Shown piece after piece: positions 7,457 through 55,275 of a stretch of 64,000 nt of DNA. Made by a program: the position numbers and the translations under genes. A model generated the notes under the pieces. It ran no database searches and had not been told where the DNA came from. It worked only from the letters and a program-made list of their open reading frames with translations. Position 1 is the stretch's first letter, and every line of letters begins with the position of its first letter. The stretch is taken from contig BPHE01000011.1 of the NCBI GenBank assembly GCA_026003395.1, forward strand, positions 1-64,000. Direction: 5' to 3'. The DNA comes from Vicingaceae bacterium. Lineage in GTDB: Bacteria; Bacteroidota; Bacteroidia; Flavobacteriales_E; Vicingaceae.

Positions 7457-8340
7457 CAATATCCTCCACCCGATGGTTGAATGTTTTCGATTGGATGCCA
7501 TGTAGTTTTTACTTCACATACATCCAAAATACGGTAAGGGTTTTCCACAACATTTTCACTCATATCCACAGGATAGATATTCACTCTTTTAACGTTGATG
7601 GAAGCATTGTTTTGTAAAGTTTTTATTTCATCTTGATTGTTACCAAAATAAACTAAACCATGCACTTGCAAATGGGTGGAAAGATGGTCAATCAATTCTT
7701 TCCGGCTGCCCGTAAGAATATTGACCACCCCTGAAGGCAAATCTGAGGTGGCTAGTGCTTCAGCAAAAGTAATGGACGGCAAAGGATATTTTTCCGAAGC
7801 CAGAGCCACCACACAATTACCTGCAACAATCGCCGGTATAATGGCAGAAATCAGACCCAATAAAGGAAATTCGTCAGGACAAAATATACCGATGACACCT
7901 GTTGGTTCATACACAGAAAAATTGAAATAACTGCCGGCAATGGGATTGACACTGCTGAAAACTTGTTGGTATTTATCGGCCCAACCGGAAAAATAAACCA
8001 ACCTGTCGATACTTGACTCTACTTCTTCTTTTGCTTTTGATGCATCACCATAATATAGTGTCAATTCGTCAATAAACTGATTTTTTCTGCCTTCCAACAC
8101 CTCGGCCATCCGATACACTATCTGGCTTTTTAAAAATGCCGATGATTTGTTCCATTTACCAATTGCTTCATATGCTGCTTTAACCGCATCTCTTACATCT
8201 TTTCTCGAACATAAACAAGCATTGGCAATAAATTTCCCTTTCGCATCCTTTACTTTGTAATAACGTCCGCTTTCGGTTCTTGGAAATTGTCCATTGATAA
8301 ATATTTTGTATGTTTTTAAAACAGGAATTCTATTACTCAT
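7456..8340 (-). CDS. Aldehyde dehydrogenase-like protein lacking the catalytic half
   Basis: A 294-residue protein that aligns by eye with the first half of an aldehyde dehydrogenase: FINGQFPRTESG, the helix AVKAAYEAIGKW, YEPTGVIGIFCPDEFPLLGLISAIIPAIVAGNCVVAL, and LPSGVVNILTG. It then ends without the catalytic cysteine motif or the ELGGK general-base motif, and WN in the nucleotide site is replaced by DE. The frame is clean and well kept, so it looks like a deliberate pseudoenzyme. Gene order (active ALDH first, 15 bases away) mimics the two-domain ALDH16 proteins, whose second domain is also non-catalytic. Role as a partner subunit is inferred. Confidence 0.75.
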   Translation of the reverse strand: MSNRIPVLKTYKIFINGQFPRTESGRYYKVKDAKGKFIANACLCSRKDVRDAVKAAYEAIGKWNKSSAFLKSQIVYRMAEVLEGRKNQFIDELTLYYGDASKAKEEVESSIDRLVYFSGWADKYQQVFSSVNPIAGSYFNFSVYEPTGVIGIFCPDEFPLLGLISAIIPAIVAGNCVVALASEKYPLPSITFAEALATSDLPSGVVNILTGSRKELIDHLSTHLQVHGLVYFGNNQDEIKTLQNNASINVKRVNIYPVDMSENVVENPYRILDVCEVKTTWHPIENIQPSGGGY

Positions 8341-45951: not shown

Positions 45952-47385
45952 ATGAACTTGAAAGAACAAAAATTTTACAAAACATTGCAAGATGTATTCA
46001 TTGGAGCCAAAATTGAAGGCACCGGCGGCTTTGTCAATTTGATGAGAATAAAGTCAAACTATTATCGGAAAATAGAACAGCTGCTGAAAGATGATATAAA
46101 CAAAGCATTGCGGCAATATCCCGCTTTTCGGGAAGAACTGTTCGATAAGCTTTATTCGTTTTTCAGCCGCTATTTTTCAAGCAATGGTTCAATTTATTAC
46201 AATCAAACACCTTTTCACAACAATATTTACGAAAGGGTCTATACCAACGAAAAAGATGTTGTCTTGTTTTGGAAAACACAGATGCTCTATTATGTTAAAA
46301 CCGACCGCATTTTCAGAAGTTTGGAAATTGAGTCCGATGGATTTAAGTTTTTCTTTGATGTCTCAAAATTGGAGCATAAAAAAGCCAATGAAAGACGCAA
46401 CTTGATTTATGAATTAAAAGAAGTTAAGCCCGGCGGTATTGTGGTTTTTGATGTACTTTATTCGGAAAAGGGAAGAGTTACCAAAACGGATGATATACTC
46501 AAAGCACTTAAAAAACAAAATACGCAAATGGATGAAGAGCAACTGGAACGTGCTTTCCGGATATTTGAGCGCCAAAGCGAAGTGGACTTTTTCATCAACA
46601 AAAACGCCAAGGCATTTTTGCAGGAGCAGTTTAAGTTATGGAGTTATCAATACTTTTGGGAGGGGGCAAAAGAATGGACCGCAGACAGAGTCAATCAGCT
46701 GCAAATCCTCAAAGACATTGCATATAAAGTTATTGACTTCATTGGGCAGTTTGAAGACGAACTGGTAAAGATATGGAACAAGCCGAAGTTTGTAAAAAAC
46801 GCCCATTATGTGATTTCTCTAGACAGAATAGGGGATATTGGTTTGATAGAGAAACTTCTGTCACACGAAGGCATACAAGAGCAAAGTAAAGAATGGCAGT
46901 ACTTGGGCTTTGTAGATGATGCCTTCAAGGTAGAAGAGGTTTTTGAAACAGATTTGATGGGCAAGAAACTTTCGGATAAATACAAACATCTTCCCATTGA
47001 TACCAAGTATTTCAAAGATTTAGAATTGGAAATTTTAAGTTTATTTGATGATTTAGATAAGGCATTGGATGGCCGATTGATAAAAAGCGATAATTATCAG
47101 GCACTAAATACCATTCTGCCGAAATTCAAAGAAAAAGTGCAGACAATTTATATTGATCCACCGTTTAATTTGGACAGCAGTGACCAATTTTTATACCGCA
47201 CAAATTATAAAGATGCCAACTGGGCAACATTGCTGGAAAACCGATTACGTATTGCCAAAGAATGGCTGAATGAAAGAGGTAGTATTTTTGTTAGGTGTGA
47301 TTATAATGGCAATTGGATTGTGAGATGTTTGATGGATGAGATTTTTGGAAGGGAGAATTTTAGGAATGAGATTGTAATCAGATAG
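45952..47385 (+). CDS. mod: Type III-like DNA methyltransferase Mod, N-terminal fragment
   Basis: The first 477 residues of a DNA adenine methyltransferase. About 395 residues of helical, charged sequence without a known motif lead to TIYIDPPFNLDSSDQFLYRTNY, the catalytic motif IV (DPPF near residues 403-406), then LLENRLRIAKEWLNERGSIFVRCDYNG, typical of beta-class enzymes in which motif IV precedes motif I. The reading ends at a TAG at 47383, just after FRNEIVIR. The sequence goes on in other frames, so this is a broken gene or a consensus error. Intact, the protein would be about 810 residues. Confidence 0.82.
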   Translation: MNLKEQKFYKTLQDVFIGAKIEGTGGFVNLMRIKSNYYRKIEQLLKDDINKALRQYPAFREELFDKLYSFFSRYFSSNGSIYYNQTPFHNNIYERVYTNEKDVVLFWKTQMLYYVKTDRIFRSLEIESDGFKFFFDVSKLEHKKANERRNLIYELKEVKPGGIVVFDVLYSEKGRVTKTDDILKALKKQNTQMDEEQLERAFRIFERQSEVDFFINKNAKAFLQEQFKLWSYQYFWEGAKEWTADRVNQLQILKDIAYKVIDFIGQFEDELVKIWNKPKFVKNAHYVISLDRIGDIGLIEKLLSHEGIQEQSKEWQYLGFVDDAFKVEEVFETDLMGKKLSDKYKHLPIDTKYFKDLELEILSLFDDLDKALDGRLIKSDNYQALNTILPKFKEKVQTIYIDPPFNLDSSDQFLYRTNYKDANWATLLENRLRIAKEWLNERGSIFVRCDYNGNWIVRCLMDEIFGRENFRNEIVIR

Positions 47386-47714
47386 AACCAGAGCAAAGCA
47401 AAAAGTTGAGAGTCAATTCATCCAACAAACTGAGAGTTTATTTTTCTATTCTAAAGGAAGCAAGGTTTTATTAAATAGAAATTGAAAGGGAAAGAGAACC
47501 AGAATGGCATTCTTGTGACTTCATTCTTCCAAGGTCTGATGATCAAGCCAAGAATAATTTTGGGGAAAGAATATTACCCGCCAAAAGGTAGAAGACTGGG
47601 CTTTATTCCCAAAACAGAATAGACAAATTTTGAAAAAGCGGGGAAAATAATGAATAAATGAAAATTTAAGCTATATAGATTGCAGGGGAAATGTAATACA
47701 AGGGGTTCCTGAAA
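47386..47714 (+). pseudogene. Frame-scrambled centre of the mod gene
   Basis: No single frame is open, yet the expected Mod protein can be followed through all three. Frame from 47384: RTRAKQKVESQFIQQTESLF. From about 47475: IEREREPEWHSCDFILPRSD and NNFGERILP. From 47581: PKGRRLGFIPK. Then a piece reading INENLSYIDCRGNVIQGVPE before the last frame takes over near 47715. That is about six one- or two-base shifts in 330 bases, mostly beside short homopolymers. In beta-class methyltransferases this central region holds target recognition. The length (about 110 codons) matches an undamaged gene. Confidence 0.75.
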
Positions 47715-48383
47715 TTGTTATATGACACCGAACTCGTTGGTAATGAGTGGCTCGATATTTCTGGATATTCGCAAGCTCAACATTTCTCCACTGAAAATTC
47801 TGAAACTCTTCTAAAACGAGTTATTGAATCTGCTTCCAACGAAGGAGATTTAGTTTTAGACTTCTTCCTCGGCTCAGGCACGACAACAGCCGTAGCCCAC
47901 AAACTTGGCAGAAAGTGGATTGGCGTTGAGATGGGAGAACATTTTTATAGTGTGGTTTTACCAAGAATGAAAAAGGTTTTGGCGTATGACAAGTCTGGTA
48001 TTTCAAAAGAAGTTAAGGAATATCAGGGTGGTGGCTTCTTCAAATACTATGAACTTGAACAATACGAGGAAGCACTTGCCAATACGGTTTATGAAAATCA
48101 TGATATGTTTATTGCAGGAAATAAAAGTCCTTATGAGCAATATGTATTTTTAAAAGACGAAAAGATGCTCAATGCATTGGAAATAGATTATGAAAATAAC
48201 AAAGTAAAAGTGGATTTGGATAAACTTTATCCGAATATAGATATTGCAGAAACTTTGTCTAACTTAACCGGAAAGTGGATAAAGAAAATAAAAGATGCAG
48301 AAGTAGAGTTTGAAGACGGAACAAAAATCAATTTAAGAGACTTAGATTATAAGTTAATAAAACCGTTAATTTGGTGGGAGTGA
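47715..48383 (+). CDS. mod: Type III-like DNA methyltransferase Mod, C-terminal fragment
   Basis: The last 222 residues of Mod. DTELVGNEWLDISGYS, then FSTENSETLLKRVIESAS, then LVLDFFLGSGTTTAVAHKLGRKWIGVEMG give motifs X and I (FxGxG), the SAM-binding part. The remaining 130 residues form a Mod-type C-terminal region ending in LIWWE. The TTG at 47715 is only the first open codon in this frame, not a true start. The TrlF-like gene begins 37 bases on. Confidence 0.8.
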   Translation: MLYDTELVGNEWLDISGYSQAQHFSTENSETLLKRVIESASNEGDLVLDFFLGSGTTTAVAHKLGRKWIGVEMGEHFYSVVLPRMKKVLAYDKSGISKEVKEYQGGGFFKYYELEQYEEALANTVYENHDMFIAGNKSPYEQYVFLKDEKMLNALEIDYENNKVKVDLDKLYPNIDIAETLSNLTGKWIKKIKDAEVEFEDGTKINLRDLDYKLIKPLIWWE

Positions 48384-48420
48384 AAAGTGAATATGGGAAA
48401 AAAAGAATTTATACTATTCA

Positions 48421-49500
48421 ATGAACGGTGCAAACTGGGTAAAAGCAGATTTTCATTTGCATTCACCTTATGTACATTCTTTTACTTTACCTCCGGGTGC
48501 TGATTTAAGTGATATAGACAAGTTGGTCGATTTATACACAGAAAAATTAAAAGAAAGAGAGATTAAAATTGCTGCAATTACCGACTATCAGCAAATCAGA
48601 ATAGATTTTTTTGAAAAACTACAATCGAAGGCGGAACAAAATGGTATTTATATCTTTCCCGGTGTGGAACTGTCGGTAAACTACGGTAAAGGATTACATA
48701 TACTTTTAATTTTTGAATATAATCAAGATATAGATGGAATAAATGATTATATCAAAGCATTAGATCAAAACCCTCATGAAAATTTAATAAAAAATGATAG
48801 AAGTCATCGAGATATTAGTTTGCAGAAAGATTTAAAGTTAATTTTAGAAGAAATTAAATCCAAATTTAATTGTTTATTAATATATCCCCATCCGAATGAT
48901 AAAAACGGACTATTGAATTCCTTTCAGCCCAAAGAAGCTGCTGAGTTTTTAAAATATGCCGATGCAATTGAGTTTATTGATGAAAGAGATAAAAATAAAA
49001 TAATAAGTACAGGAGTGTTAGATAAATCATTTTTTACCAACCTCGCTGTTATTGAGAATACTGACCCAAAGTCATTCGATGAAATTGGTTCAAAGCAAAG
49101 AAAAAATCAAATCAGAACAACTTATTTAAAACTTAGTAGCGCTTCTATAAATGCTGTTAAACTTGCTTTACACGATCCGTCATTACGAGTGAGTATCTAT
49201 AACAAACCGGATGCAAAGAAAGACAAAATAGTATCTATAAGAATTAACGGCACATCTTTTTTAAAAAATGTTGAAGTACAATTTAATTCTGATTTAAATA
49301 CATTTATTGGTGGGCGTGGTGTAGGCAAATCGGCCATTTTAGAGGCAATTAGATATTGCCTTGATTTACCCGTTTACTCAGATAAAGAGTATAGAGAAAA
49401 TTTTGTAAAGAATGTAGTAGGAAGTGGTGGAGTTATTGAAATTGAAATTGAAAGATTTTTTGGCGATAAGGCATTAAACCAGATAAATTCAAAAGAGTGA
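48421..49500 (+). CDS. TrlF-like protein, N-terminal part: PHP domain and Walker A
   Basis: A 359-residue reading frame with a PHP phosphoesterase domain: KADFHLHSPY (His12, His14), AAITDYQQ, FPGVELSV (Glu83) and LLIYPHPNDKNG, most of a metal-ligand set. After about residue 270 an SMC/RecF-type ATPase begins: FLKNVEVQFNSDLNTFIGGRGVGKSAILEAIRY, with Walker A GGRGVGKS. It stops early at 49498. The next frame continues the same protein, so the gene is split by a frameshift. PHP plus AAA-like ATPase is the TrlF architecture, known from some restriction loci. Confidence 0.75.
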   Translation: MNGANWVKADFHLHSPYVHSFTLPPGADLSDIDKLVDLYTEKLKEREIKIAAITDYQQIRIDFFEKLQSKAEQNGIYIFPGVELSVNYGKGLHILLIFEYNQDIDGINDYIKALDQNPHENLIKNDRSHRDISLQKDLKLILEEIKSKFNCLLIYPHPNDKNGLLNSFQPKEAAEFLKYADAIEFIDERDKNKIISTGVLDKSFFTNLAVIENTDPKSFDEIGSKQRKNQIRTTYLKLSSASINAVKLALHDPSLRVSIYNKPDAKKDKIVSIRINGTSFLKNVEVQFNSDLNTFIGGRGVGKSAILEAIRYCLDLPVYSDKEYRENFVKNVVGSGGVIEIEIERFFGDKALNQINSKE

Positions 49501-51074
49501 TTGGACAACTGCCAGAAGTAGAAAATAAAAATATACCCCCCATTGAAGTGTTCGGTGATAAAACACCTTTGATTCTCGGGCAAAAAGAACTTTATGCCTT
49601 ATCATTGAAGGATGATTTTCAACTATCGCTTATTGATAATTTGATTGGCGATGAATTAAAAAAAGAAGACATAGAACTAAAAAAATTGATTAATCAATTA
49701 GATGAGAATGCCCGTGAATTATTAACTGCAAAAAAGAACATTCAAAAGAAAGATGAAGTAGAACAGGAACTAAAAACAATAAATGAACATCTTAAAACGT
49801 TTGAGCAACTTGGAGTAGCCGATAAAATGGCTAAACAAACAGCACTCATACAAGATGAAAAGAAATTAAAACAAGCAATAGAGCTAATTCAAAATCAAAT
49901 AAATAACCACAAACAATTATTTGAAGAAACAATATCAGAGATTGAAAAACAAGTAAAGTTATTGCATGAAGGCAAAAGTGTTGAAAAAGATATTTTATCA
50001 AATGCATCTAATATATTTTCAAATGTTAAACAATATTTTGAAGAGTTAAAAAAAGATTTTGAGATTAAAACAAAGGATTATGAGCAACAAATAGAAAAAA
50101 TAAAAAAACAATGGGAAGAACAAAAGAAAAAGTATGATAATGAAATTATTTCAATAAAACAAGAACTATCCGCTAAAGGTTTAGCACCCGATAAATACGA
50201 AGAACTAGTTAAAAGAAAAACTCAGTTAGAACCTCTTTTGAAGGAATATCAAAAAGTTAATTCCAAAATTACTGAGTTAGAAAAGAAGAGAAATGAATTA
50301 AAGTCACAATTAAAACATAAAAGACATCAACTGTTTGAAATAAGGAAAAATAAATTAGATAAACTGAATAATAAATTGAACGATAAACTTAAAATAGAGA
50401 TTGAATATCTGAGCAACAAAGAAAAATTCAAAGAAGATCTTACTGAACTTCTCAGAGGTTCCGGAATTTCAAGAGAGGTTATTAACTGTATCATTGAAAA
50501 AGAAGCAATTGATGGAATAGAGTTATCAAAACTTATTTCATTAGGAAAAAACAAAGTTATCGAAGAGTTAGGACTTACCGATGCAATGGCTCAGAGGTTT
50601 ATAAATTGGTTTAGTGACAATGAAAAGTTGTACAAGTTAGAAAATCTTTTTCCTGACGATAAAATTATTATAAAACTAAAAATAGAGGATACATATAAAG
50701 AATTAAATACTCTTTCGGCAGGGCAAAAAGCAACGGCATTATTAATTTTATTGTTTGCTCAGGAAGATAGAATTTTAATAATTGACCAACCTGAAGAAGA
50801 TCTGGATAATAGATTTATATATGAAGATGTGGTCAAAATATTACGAGAAATAAAAAAAACCAGGCAAATTATTTTAGTAACTCATAATGCCAATATTCCT
50901 GTGTTAGGCGATGCAGAGCAGGTTTTTGTTCTGGACGCTTCAAATAATGAATGTTCCATTATTGACACCGGTTCAATCGATAAACATTCCATTGCTCAAA
51001 ATATTAAGTCAATAATGGAAGGTGGTGAAGAAGCATTTAAACGTAGAATTGAAAAATATGGAGTTAACCTATGA
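49497..51074 (+). CDS. TrlF-like protein, C-terminal part: coiled coil and ABC-type ATPase end
   Basis: A 525-residue continuation of the preceding gene in another frame. RVIGQLPEV (partly before the nominal GTG), then PLILGQKELYALSLKDDFQ belong to the ATPase lobe. A long coiled coil (about residues 50-290) follows. The second lobe has LNTLSAGQKATALLILLFAQ (signature), ILIIDQPEEDLDNRFI (Walker B) and ILVTHNANIPVLGDAEQVFVLD (switch His). One added A in the A-run near 49491 would join it to the upstream frame. It overlaps the AlbA_2 gene by four bases. A nuclease or effector role alongside Mod/Res is inferred. Confidence 0.75.
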   Translation: MIGQLPEVENKNIPPIEVFGDKTPLILGQKELYALSLKDDFQLSLIDNLIGDELKKEDIELKKLINQLDENARELLTAKKNIQKKDEVEQELKTINEHLKTFEQLGVADKMAKQTALIQDEKKLKQAIELIQNQINNHKQLFEETISEIEKQVKLLHEGKSVEKDILSNASNIFSNVKQYFEELKKDFEIKTKDYEQQIEKIKKQWEEQKKKYDNEIISIKQELSAKGLAPDKYEELVKRKTQLEPLLKEYQKVNSKITELEKKRNELKSQLKHKRHQLFEIRKNKLDKLNNKLNDKLKIEIEYLSNKEKFKEDLTELLRGSGISREVINCIIEKEAIDGIELSKLISLGKNKVIEELGLTDAMAQRFINWFSDNEKLYKLENLFPDDKIIIKLKIEDTYKELNTLSAGQKATALLILLFAQEDRILIIDQPEEDLDNRFIYEDVVKILREIKKTRQIILVTHNANIPVLGDAEQVFVLDASNNECSIIDTGSIDKHSIAQNIKSIMEGGEEAFKRRIEKYGVNL

Positions 51075-52225
51075 ATACAATTGAACTATTAGAACTAATA
51101 AACAAAGGAGAGAGCTATCATCTTGAGTTTAAATTAGAGGAAGAAAATAACGAAGATTTCGCAAAAACTATCGTATGTTTTGCCAATACCGATGGAGGTA
51201 AAATAGCCATAGGTGTAGATGATGACGGCAATATCATTGGCGTTTCAGATGTTGATGAAATAATGCGCAAATTAGATGATGTAGCAATAAATCGATGTGA
51301 ACCTCCTGTGTCTATTATTCAAGAATCAGTGATTGTTGATGATAAAAAAGTAGTAATTGTACATATTGACAAAGGTAGTCAAAGACCATATAGAACTAAA
51401 AGTGGGCAGTATTATGTTAGAGCATCAAACCGTTGTCGTCAAGCATCAAGAGAAGAATTATTAAGAATTTTTCAGACAAACCAAAGCTTATATTACGATG
51501 AATTGCCCGTTAATCGTGCATCATTATCTGACTTGGATTTATCCGTCTTTAAAGATTTTCTGTCCAATTATCTTGATATAACCATTGACAATGACAACGA
51601 TTTGAAAAATTACCTGATAAATTTTCATTTGTTAACTAAGGATGAAATACCAACTATAACAGGAATACTATTTTTTGGAAAAGAACCTCAAAAATTTATT
51701 CCTGAAGCAAGAGTAATTTGTGCAAACATTAGTGGAAGTGATATTGGAGACACAGCCCTTGAACATCAAGAATTAAAGGGTACTATTCCTGTTATGATTA
51801 CCTATGTGGAAAATTTTTTGAGGAGCAATTTAAAAAAATTACATCAAATTAAAGATTTTAGTCCGGAATCAGAATATGAAATACCACTAACAGCCCTAAG
51901 AGAAGCTGTAATAAATGCCATAGCCCATAGAGATTATACTATAAGCGCACCCATACGAGTTATTATATTTGCCGACAGAATTGAAATTCATAGCCCCGGA
52001 ATTCTTCCCAATACAGTGACCGTAGAAAGCATGAAGGTTGGCGGTTCGCACGTACTACGAAATCCAACCATTTATAATTTGCTGGTTAAAATGAAAATGG
52101 TGACAGATTTAGGAAGCGGCGTACGAAGAATGATTAAGCTAATTAAAGAACACATAAACAAAGAGGTAAATCTTATCACTACCGAAAATGAATTTATCGT
52201 TAAAATACCAAGAAAAATAGTATAA
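51071..52225 (+). CDS. AlbA_2 (Schlafen-type) domain protein with RecG-like C-terminus
   Basis: A 384-residue protein. The N-terminal AlbA_2 domain has ESYHLEFK (Glu14, Glu19), FANTDGGKIAIGVDDDGNIIGV and KSGQYYVRASNRCRQASREE. The Glu-x4-Glu plus downstream Asp pattern (D50-D52) parallels the nuclease triad of eukaryotic Schlafen proteins, without proving activity. The C-terminal part has the ATPase/RecG-like segment TALREAVINAIAHRDYT, then IEIHSPGILPNTVT and NPTIYNLLVKMKMVTDLGSGVRRM, an HATPase_c_4/winged-helix type. It overlaps the TrlF-like gene (ATGA); res follows 104 bases later. Confidence 0.82.
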   Translation: MNTIELLELINKGESYHLEFKLEEENNEDFAKTIVCFANTDGGKIAIGVDDDGNIIGVSDVDEIMRKLDDVAINRCEPPVSIIQESVIVDDKKVVIVHIDKGSQRPYRTKSGQYYVRASNRCRQASREELLRIFQTNQSLYYDELPVNRASLSDLDLSVFKDFLSNYLDITIDNDNDLKNYLINFHLLTKDEIPTITGILFFGKEPQKFIPEARVICANISGSDIGDTALEHQELKGTIPVMITYVENFLRSNLKKLHQIKDFSPESEYEIPLTALREAVINAIAHRDYTISAPIRVIIFADRIEIHSPGILPNTVTVESMKVGGSHVLRNPTIYNLLVKMKMVTDLGSGVRRMIKLIKEHINKEVNLITTENEFIVKIPRKIV

Positions 52226-52329
52226 ATTTAAACACGGCATGAATAAACAAAAAATGAGATTTTACAGATATTTAGGATTATCTTTAATTTGATGGGAGCG
52301 GTATATTTAATTACAAATTAATTAAGCAT

Positions 52330-55275
52330 ATGAAACTTTATCTTCAAAACATAACCGACACCATTCGCCGGGAAAATTTACCCACTGAATGGATAGATGT
52401 TGATTTGACCAAATTTTCCAACAACAAAACTTTGTATAACTACCAACAAAAAGCCCTTCAAAATGCCATCGTTGCATTGTACAAATACTTTGGCAGCACA
52501 AGCGACCAACCCAAAAAAGATTTTTTTGAACTCTACCGTCAAAATGGTTTCAATGAAAATCTCGACTTGAATATCAACAAAAAACACCATAAAATTTTTC
52601 AAGATTATGAAGATGATTTCCCAATAGAAGACCACAAAATAGCTTTTGAGCACTACATCAACCGCATGAGTTTTTGGATGGCTACCGGTAGTGGCAAAAC
52701 TATTGTCATCGTTAAACTCATAGAAATTCTTGCTCGGTTTATCAAAGCAGGGCTTATCCCTGCCAACGACATATTGTTTTTATCCTACCGCGAAGATTTG
52801 CTTGAGCAATTTAAAAAACATGTGGAAGAATTCAATGCTGCCGGCAACGGTATTCATATCAACCTGTATGATTTGAAGCTGTTTGAATCTCTAAAAAATA
52901 CCAACCGCCTGCAATTTGCCAATGAAATAGACATATTTTACTACCGCAGCGATTTAATCTCAGACGAACAAAAAGACAAAATCATAGATTTTCGCAATTA
53001 CGATAATCAAGGCAATTGGTATATTCTGCTGGACGAAGCCCATAAAGGCGATAATGAAGAAAGTAAACGACAACATTACTATTCTATCCTTGCACGCAAC
53101 GGATTTTTATTCAATTTCTCGGCTACTTTTACCGACGAGATAGACATTGCCACAACGGTTTTTAACTTCAATCTTGAAAGATTTATTTCCGAAGGATATG
53201 GCAAACAAATATACATTTCCCAAAGCGATATTTCCACCTTGGGCAACAAACCGAAAGATGATTTTTCCAACGAGCAGAAACAAATTATCATCCTGAAACT
53301 TCTGCTGTTGTACACATACATAGCCAAGCGAAAAGAGCAAGTAGGACATTACTATCACCGCCCAATGATTTTGACTCTCGTCAACTCTGTCAATACCAAC
53401 GATTCAGATTTGTATCTTTTCTTTAAAGAACTGGAAAACATAGCCACCGGTCGAAGTAGTCAAAATTCGTTGGATATTGCCAAGCAACAACTCGTTGATG
53501 AATTAAATATGGTTCGTTGCGAATTTACCAATGAAAAAGTTCATTTTCATTTGTCCGAATTCAATAATTACACCTACCGTGATATTCTTAAGTATGTTTT
53601 TAATGCCGAAACTTTTGGAAAAATAGAAGTGCTGAAAATACCCGGCAACAAACAGGAAATTGTATTCAAATTAGCCACCACCGACCGCCCGTTTGGACTT
53701 ATCAAAATCGGCGACATTTCTTCATGGTTAAAAGAAAAACTCTCCGATTATGAAATTGTAGAAAAATTTGACAATGAAAGCGTTTTTGCATCTCTCAATC
53801 GTGATGATTCCGACATCAACATCCTGATGGGCTCCCGCTCCTTCTATGAAGGATGGGACAGCAACCGCCCAAATATGATTCTTTATATCAATATTGGCAA
53901 AGGCAGCGATGCCCGCAAATTTGTGCTGCAATCCATAGGACGCGGCATCCGCGTTGAACCACTGCCTAACAAAAGACAACGTTTGACCTTTTTGCTCATC
54001 AACAATGAAATAACCGCTGACGAGTTTGAAAAACTGAAAAACCACTATCAACCCTTAGAAACACTTTTTGTATACGGCACGAAAGCAGACAACCTTCGCG
54101 AAGTGCTCGAAACACTCAAACAAGAAAAACAAGACGAACTCCTTGGAGACCTTTTCGAAATCAATCCTGATGTTATAGGGAAACTCTTGCTTATTCCTGT
54201 TTACAAAGAGTCCGACAAATTAATTTCCCAATCACAACAACCCATCAAATTTTCCATACATCCCGATGATTACAAATTAGTAAAAGAGTACTTTCTTTAT
54301 TTAGGCGAAAAGGTAGTGCTGGCAAAATACCAATGCCATGTGGCAGTTCTGCATTCCTTGCAAGATGGTCTAAATGGGCATGCGGCTAATTATTTCCTTC
54401 AAGACACAAATGAAAGTCGTTTCCAAAACCCCGATCTTTTATTGAAAAAAATCATCAAGCATTTTGAAAATAAGACCAAAGAATTAAGCAATTTCAAGCC
54501 ACTGCAACAAGAAATCATACACTTTAAAAGCATCCGCATTTCAAAAGACAAACTCAATTCGTTGAGAGAAAAGATTGAAAAAGTCAAGCAATCGAGAAAT
54601 AAAGAAAAATTAGAAAGTAAGTTAGACAAACTGTTTGACGAAGGCAAAATCAGCAAAGATGAATATAAAACGAAAATTAAAGAATTAGAAGCCAAATATG
54701 TTCATGAACAAGAAGTTACATACAACAGTGCCAATGAAAAATTAAAAATCAAATATTTAGCCAATCATTATTACATACCTGTAGCATTGACAGAATCTGA
54801 AAAATCTGATTTTATCCAACATATTATTAAGCACAAAAGTGAAGTTGAGTTTATTGAACAATTGCAAGATTACATAAAAAAAGAAGACAATTTGTTCAAA
54901 CAATTCGATTGGTGGTTCTTCTCAAAAATAGATGAAACACTTGACGATGTTTATATTCCTTATTACAACCCCAATACCAATCGCATGGAAAAGTTCAAGC
55001 CAGATTTTATTTTTTGGCTGAAAAAAGGCAATGAATACACCATATTGTTCATAGACCCCAAAGGCACAGAACATACCGATGCCTACAGAAAAATTGATGG
55101 TTACAGGCGCATGTTTGAAGACGAACAAAGTAGCAAAACAAAAATTTTTGCTTCTAAAGAGATAAATGTGCGAGTGTGTTTGCTGCTCAAAGCCAAACAA
55201 ATTGCAAGTGTGCCGGACAATTACAAAAAATATTGGTTTGATGATATCAAAGAAATAGCTCAAAAAATATTTTGA
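52330..55275 (+). CDS. res: Type III-like restriction subunit Res (helicase-nuclease)
   Basis: A 981-residue protein. Superfamily 2 helicase: Q-like YNYQQKALQNAI, Walker A ATGSGKT (118-124), DEAH box LLDEAHKG near 235, SATFTDE (motif III), then RSFYEGWDSNRPNMILYINIGKG and the motif VI arginines in QSIGRGIRVEP. A long coiled region (about 735-805) leads to a PD-(D/E)xK nuclease: FKPDFIFWLKKGNEYTILFIDPKG. Length and order fit type III Res. The frame is intact, unlike mod, so if mod is truly dead, res alone should be harmless in the type III scheme, where cutting needs Mod. Confidence 0.87.
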   Translation: MKLYLQNITDTIRRENLPTEWIDVDLTKFSNNKTLYNYQQKALQNAIVALYKYFGSTSDQPKKDFFELYRQNGFNENLDLNINKKHHKIFQDYEDDFPIEDHKIAFEHYINRMSFWMATGSGKTIVIVKLIEILARFIKAGLIPANDILFLSYREDLLEQFKKHVEEFNAAGNGIHINLYDLKLFESLKNTNRLQFANEIDIFYYRSDLISDEQKDKIIDFRNYDNQGNWYILLDEAHKGDNEESKRQHYYSILARNGFLFNFSATFTDEIDIATTVFNFNLERFISEGYGKQIYISQSDISTLGNKPKDDFSNEQKQIIILKLLLLYTYIAKRKEQVGHYYHRPMILTLVNSVNTNDSDLYLFFKELENIATGRSSQNSLDIAKQQLVDELNMVRCEFTNEKVHFHLSEFNNYTYRDILKYVFNAETFGKIEVLKIPGNKQEIVFKLATTDRPFGLIKIGDISSWLKEKLSDYEIVEKFDNESVFASLNRDDSDINILMGSRSFYEGWDSNRPNMILYINIGKGSDARKFVLQSIGRGIRVEPLPNKRQRLTFLLINNEITADEFEKLKNHYQPLETLFVYGTKADNLREVLETLKQEKQDELLGDLFEINPDVIGKLLLIPVYKESDKLISQSQQPIKFSIHPDDYKLVKEYFLYLGEKVVLAKYQCHVAVLHSLQDGLNGHAANYFLQDTNESRFQNPDLLLKKIIKHFENKTKELSNFKPLQQEIIHFKSIRISKDKLNSLREKIEKVKQSRNKEKLESKLDKLFDEGKISKDEYKTKIKELEAKYVHEQEVTYNSANEKLKIKYLANHYYIPVALTESEKSDFIQHIIKHKSEVEFIEQLQDYIKKEDNLFKQFDWWFFSKIDETLDDVYIPYYNPNTNRMEKFKPDFIFWLKKGNEYTILFIDPKGTEHTDAYRKIDGYRRMFEDEQSSKTKIFASKEINVRVCLLLKAKQIASVPDNYKKYWFDDIKEIAQKIF

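Follow-up and report, generated by a model that had tools for sequence, protein, structure and literature searches.

Is a methyltransferase gene whose reading frame is lost several times within one short segment broken in the cell, or is it broken only in the deposited sequence? The question is raised by a mod gene in the window, the whole stretch of 64,000 nucleotides of a Vicingaceae bacterium (contig BPHE01000011.1) that was analysed here. The source genome comprises 2.54 Mb in 33 contigs with a completeness of 97.7%, and its genus is otherwise unrepresented among the related genomes that we searched.

A Type III-like restriction-modification operon

The mod gene opens an operon at positions 45952-55275 of the forward strand, in which a TrlF/Ppl-like gene, an AlbA_2/HATPase_c_4 gene and a res gene follow. 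The features are as follows.

45952-48383 (+): mod overall, with a broken reading frame
45952-47385 (+): mod 5′ part, N-terminal domain and catalytic motif DPPFN; 477 aa, frame 1, intact; PADLOC MTase_III PDLC03638 (E 4.8e-197), Pfam N6_N4_Mtase
47378-47724 (+): mod target recognition domain (TRD); seven or eight breaks, each +1 modulo 3, from frame-aware alignment to intact relatives and the TRD consensus
47715-48383 (+): mod 3′ part, AdoMet motif FFLGSGTTTA and C-terminal domain; 222 aa, frame 0, intact
48421-51074 (+): TrlF/Ppl-like PHP-AAA ATPase gene (trlF); both pieces match NCBIfam NF045780, frame broken once at about 49479-49500
51071-52225 (+): AlbA_2 (Schlafen) and HATPase_c_4 gene, intact
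52330-55275 (+): res helicase-nuclease subunit, intact; ResIII, with GSGKT, DEAH and PD...DPK in the translation

The open frames bounded by 47385 and 47715 match the same family and are the two ends of a single beta-class methyltransferase. The order of its parts, motif IV followed by the TRD and motif I, is that of a Type III Mod, and the adjoining Res carries Walker A, DEXH and PD-(D/E)XK motifs. The frame of mod itself is not open, because the deposited sequence contains seven or eight breaks, which we judge to be artefactual. Provided that the cell holds an intact copy, the gene is predicted to encode the Type III subunit that recognises and methylates DNA, and the methylated base may be m6A or m4C.

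Known Type III Mods (PADLOC MTase_III PDLC03638; EcoP15I Mod, PDB 4zcf; 6k0w) share with this gene the beta-class order DPPF, TRD and F.GSGTT, and Type III systems likewise have a res helicase-nuclease gene downstream in the same operon. However, this Mod would have approximately 800 aa and a long N-terminal region compared with the 644 aa of EcoP15I, and its frame is broken in the TRD of the deposited record. Type III Mods can also produce m4C, so that the 6mA assumed in the sequence-only reading is not assured for this gene. The systems known to produce m4C (DthLIII, FnoB1III and others; PMC8259958) resemble this one in motif and layout, with a DPPY/F motif and a mod-res operon; thermophiles are the source of some of them and also of several relatives used here. 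In contrast to the usual Type III operon, mod and res are separated here by the trlF and AlbA_2 genes, an arrangement shared by only a few relatives. Among the 46 related loci (e.g., L002, L006, L010, L041 and L052) whose downstream sequence is long enough, res is present in 45, trlF in four and AlbA_2 in six, which from gene content suggests that the two intervening genes are an optional addition to the Type III operon of this mod family. The DNA from 47737 to 52227, which extends from the 3′ part of mod to the AlbA_2 gene, is 82.6% identical to that of L002, a Spirochaetota genome, and the 5′ part of mod is approximately 75.5% identical. The operon thus looks like a mosaic with recent exchange between phyla. 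The trlF homologue in L002 is an intact frame of 917 codons.

Frame breaks confined to the target recognition domain

The segment from 47131 to 48060 was compared, using a custom frame-aware aligner, with intact relatives whose flanks are closely similar (5′ part up to approximately 81% identical). A codon-usage frame finder had been rejected, as the frames inside the TRD could not be traced with it, and homology was used instead. The frame is lost seven or eight times between approximately 47378 and 47724 and nowhere else in mod. Against 20 intact relatives, three to nine breaks were needed (five to eight for most) and the conserved flanks required none. Against the consensus of 46 intact TRDs, eight breaks were placed, near 47381, 47478, 47533, 47597, 47604, 47629, 47654 and 47715; the pair at 47597 and 47604 (approximately 47597-47610) may alternatively be read as one two-base step, which gives the count of seven or eight. 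The sequence-only reading of this DNA had counted about six frame changes; the breaks are indeed in the deposited sequence, but the count was too low.

The order of frames along the consensus is 1-2-0-1-2-0-1-2-0, so that all eight steps are +1 modulo 3, and the probability that eight steps share one sign by chance is approximately 0.8%. DPPF and GSGTT lie 713 bases apart here, whereas the spacing in intact relatives is a multiple of three (e.g., 705 in L011). Seven or eight breaks fall within approximately 340 bases compared with one more, that of trlF, across the rest of the 9.3-kb operon, and this cluster is far beyond chance. That the protein can be read between the breaks as good family sequence, as had been claimed, is borne out: the read-through contains no in-frame stop, and the sequence between the breaks agrees with the consensus of family TRDs no less well than that of intact relatives, scoring 435 after paying for eight breaks compared with a mean of 427 (SD 90) for intact TRDs. 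The damaged stretch was also correctly placed in the target recognition region, where mean identity among relatives is 27% compared with 67% in the flanks. The proposal that the shifts adjoin short homopolymers is poorly supported, because only one of the eight breaks, judged by eye, lies beside a run of at least four bases. Four GGGG runs occur within the TRD stretch, and an explanation of this excess as homopolymer over-calling was rejected because the runs sit inside readable codons, away from the breaks.

In 59 relatives the frame stays open between motif IV and motif I, and the sole exception with both motifs is L009, whose mod has a lone in-frame stop near 7903 in a conserved motif on a contig with a coverage of approximately 3.5. 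That stop is probably an error too.

Elsewhere in the same genome, 1.26 Mb contained 188 same-strand coding junctions, 20 of them without a nearby ATG, although the filter that yields these 20 is leaky, since a confirmed broken gene resembling bioA is absent from them, and some of them are probably no more than normal boundaries between genes. The genome background is approximately one break per 50-100 kb. Because only about 20 suspicious junctions occur in 1.26 Mb, the fault is local. The bioA-like gene, a class-III aminotransferase at L117:3347-4658 (contig 5, approximately 23.3-24.7 kb), is split once beside an A/T homopolymer, as confirmed by Pfam. At L143:13442-19340 (contig 5, approximately 113.4-119.3 kb), two adjacent SprB/CHU_C adhesin-like genes, which represent another variable, repeat-rich gene type, also appear to be frame-broken, with two breaks and one.

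Consensus error, blended alleles or real damage

We consider it likely that the breaks are errors of the assembled consensus over an intact gene with a single TRD allele. This best explains what was observed directly: the frame is broken, always in the same direction and only within the TRD, and what lies between one break and the next is intact family sequence. This branch of the sequence-only reading is therefore supported. Reads of other strains carrying other TRDs would cover the conserved flanks only, and the TRD would be less well supported for correction because those reads match nothing but the flanks. The consensus of the TRD would then rest on few or uncorrected reads, and some eight surplus bases may have been left in from an insertion-prone, indel-rich read type. 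That local coverage was low, or left uncorrected, is our inference, as is the type of read. The errors of PacBio RS reads are nearly all indels (15.6 indels compared with 1.1 substitutions per 100 bases), whereas substitutions predominate in Illumina reads (PMC4719071). False gene breaks from long-read indel errors, the idea behind IDEEL (used in PMC9426551), similarly consist of frame changes without other mutations in genes that are intact in relatives, but here seven or eight of them lie in one variable domain of a genome that otherwise looks clean. In related metagenome loci, 36 contig ends were found within 6.15 kb on the downstream side of the catalytic motif, and eight of them lie in the first 565 bases, where approximately 3.3 are expected. 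This excess is modest (p of approximately 0.02-0.05 by a rough Poisson estimate), and its agreement with poorer support of the TRD is suggestive, not strong.

A consensus error could also have been a blend, in which two or more TRD alleles of the population were merged base by base. The damage does stop at the borders of a domain that diverges strongly between alleles, and within-population variation of restriction-modification genes is known from long-read metagenomes of lakes (PMC9426551). However, when we merged real allele pairs along their nucleotide alignments in blocks of 10, 30 or 80 bases, +1 and +2 steps were about equally frequent, and the score found here together with at least seven breaks was reached in 3%, 0% and 0% of trials, respectively. 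A blend should show both frame directions and lose the family signal, whereas here every step is +1 and a single allele can be read through as clean, stop-free family sequence. Surplus bases on one allele account for the observations better than a mixture does, and the mixed-allele version of the earlier proposal is quite improbable. The alternative that mod is a recent pseudogene with real damage, perhaps as part of a loss of the whole system, is also unlikely. Restriction genes are often lost, and the frame break of the neighbouring trlF is a counterpoint to consensus error that would suit such a loss. DNA recognition by the EcoP15I complex resides in its Mod subunits (PMC4490356); loss of Mod should therefore be tolerable, and if Mod were really broken, restriction should fall silent too. 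Nevertheless, mutation produces far more substitutions than indels. In Escherichia coli without mismatch repair, 30,061 substitutions were found compared with 5,324 indels, approximately 5.6 to 1 (PMC8510543), and eight indels should therefore bring at least 40 substitutions.

Substitutions in the TRD are not directly countable because only distant relatives of it were found in its own and related genomes, 395 genomes of the phylum, phages, plasmids and viral contigs. In a simulation, eight insertions were introduced into the intact TRDs of 46 relatives together with 0, 16, 40 or 80 substitutions. The score of the TRD found here was equalled or exceeded by 28%, 13% and 2% of the simulated TRDs with 0, 16 and 40 substitutions, respectively, and by 0 of 46 with 80, and the mean numbers of stops were 0.22, 0.98, 1.54 and 2.35 compared with none here. 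The read-through thus fits no or few substitutions, which speaks against the burst of real damage that had been offered as an alternative. The eight inserted bases yielded a mean of 5.3 detected breaks in these simulations; the eight breaks counted here may thus be a lower bound. Moreover, decay would not be confined to 340 of 2,430 bases or shift the frame in one direction only, and the substitutions and stops that accompany indels throughout a pseudogene were not seen. The dN/dS values of trlF and the AlbA_2 gene against L002 are 0.11-0.16, and therefore no long-standing decay is indicated. A real local process that adds single bases to the TRD, or a cell that decodes the shifts, is highly improbable. 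The one-directional, domain-limited pattern is the sole point in its favour, and we know of no mechanism that inserts single bases throughout a TRD or decodes such shifts. A simple-sequence tract of the phase-variation type, as expected of a phasevarion, was sought in mod and only weak imperfect repeats were found; a spare or silent TRD cassette was not found in the genome, and the 59 relatives are open across this segment. We accordingly give hardly any credence to breaks that are real in the cell, with single-base insertion limited to the TRD and a methyltransferase silenced by it or, in a minority of cells, switched on.

Implications for the organism and for genome mining

These observations call for caution in genome mining, as consensus errors may collect in TRDs and mimic pseudogenes: errors could accumulate there because the reads of other strains stop helping in the most variable domain of a restriction-modification gene. 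One-directional breaks together with absent substitutions provide a simple test, which needs no reads, for distinguishing error from blending and decay. Most likely, the shattered mod is not a real feature of this bacterium but a consensus artefact on an intact allele, and the bacterium's Type III Mod is very probably intact, with a TRD allele of its own.
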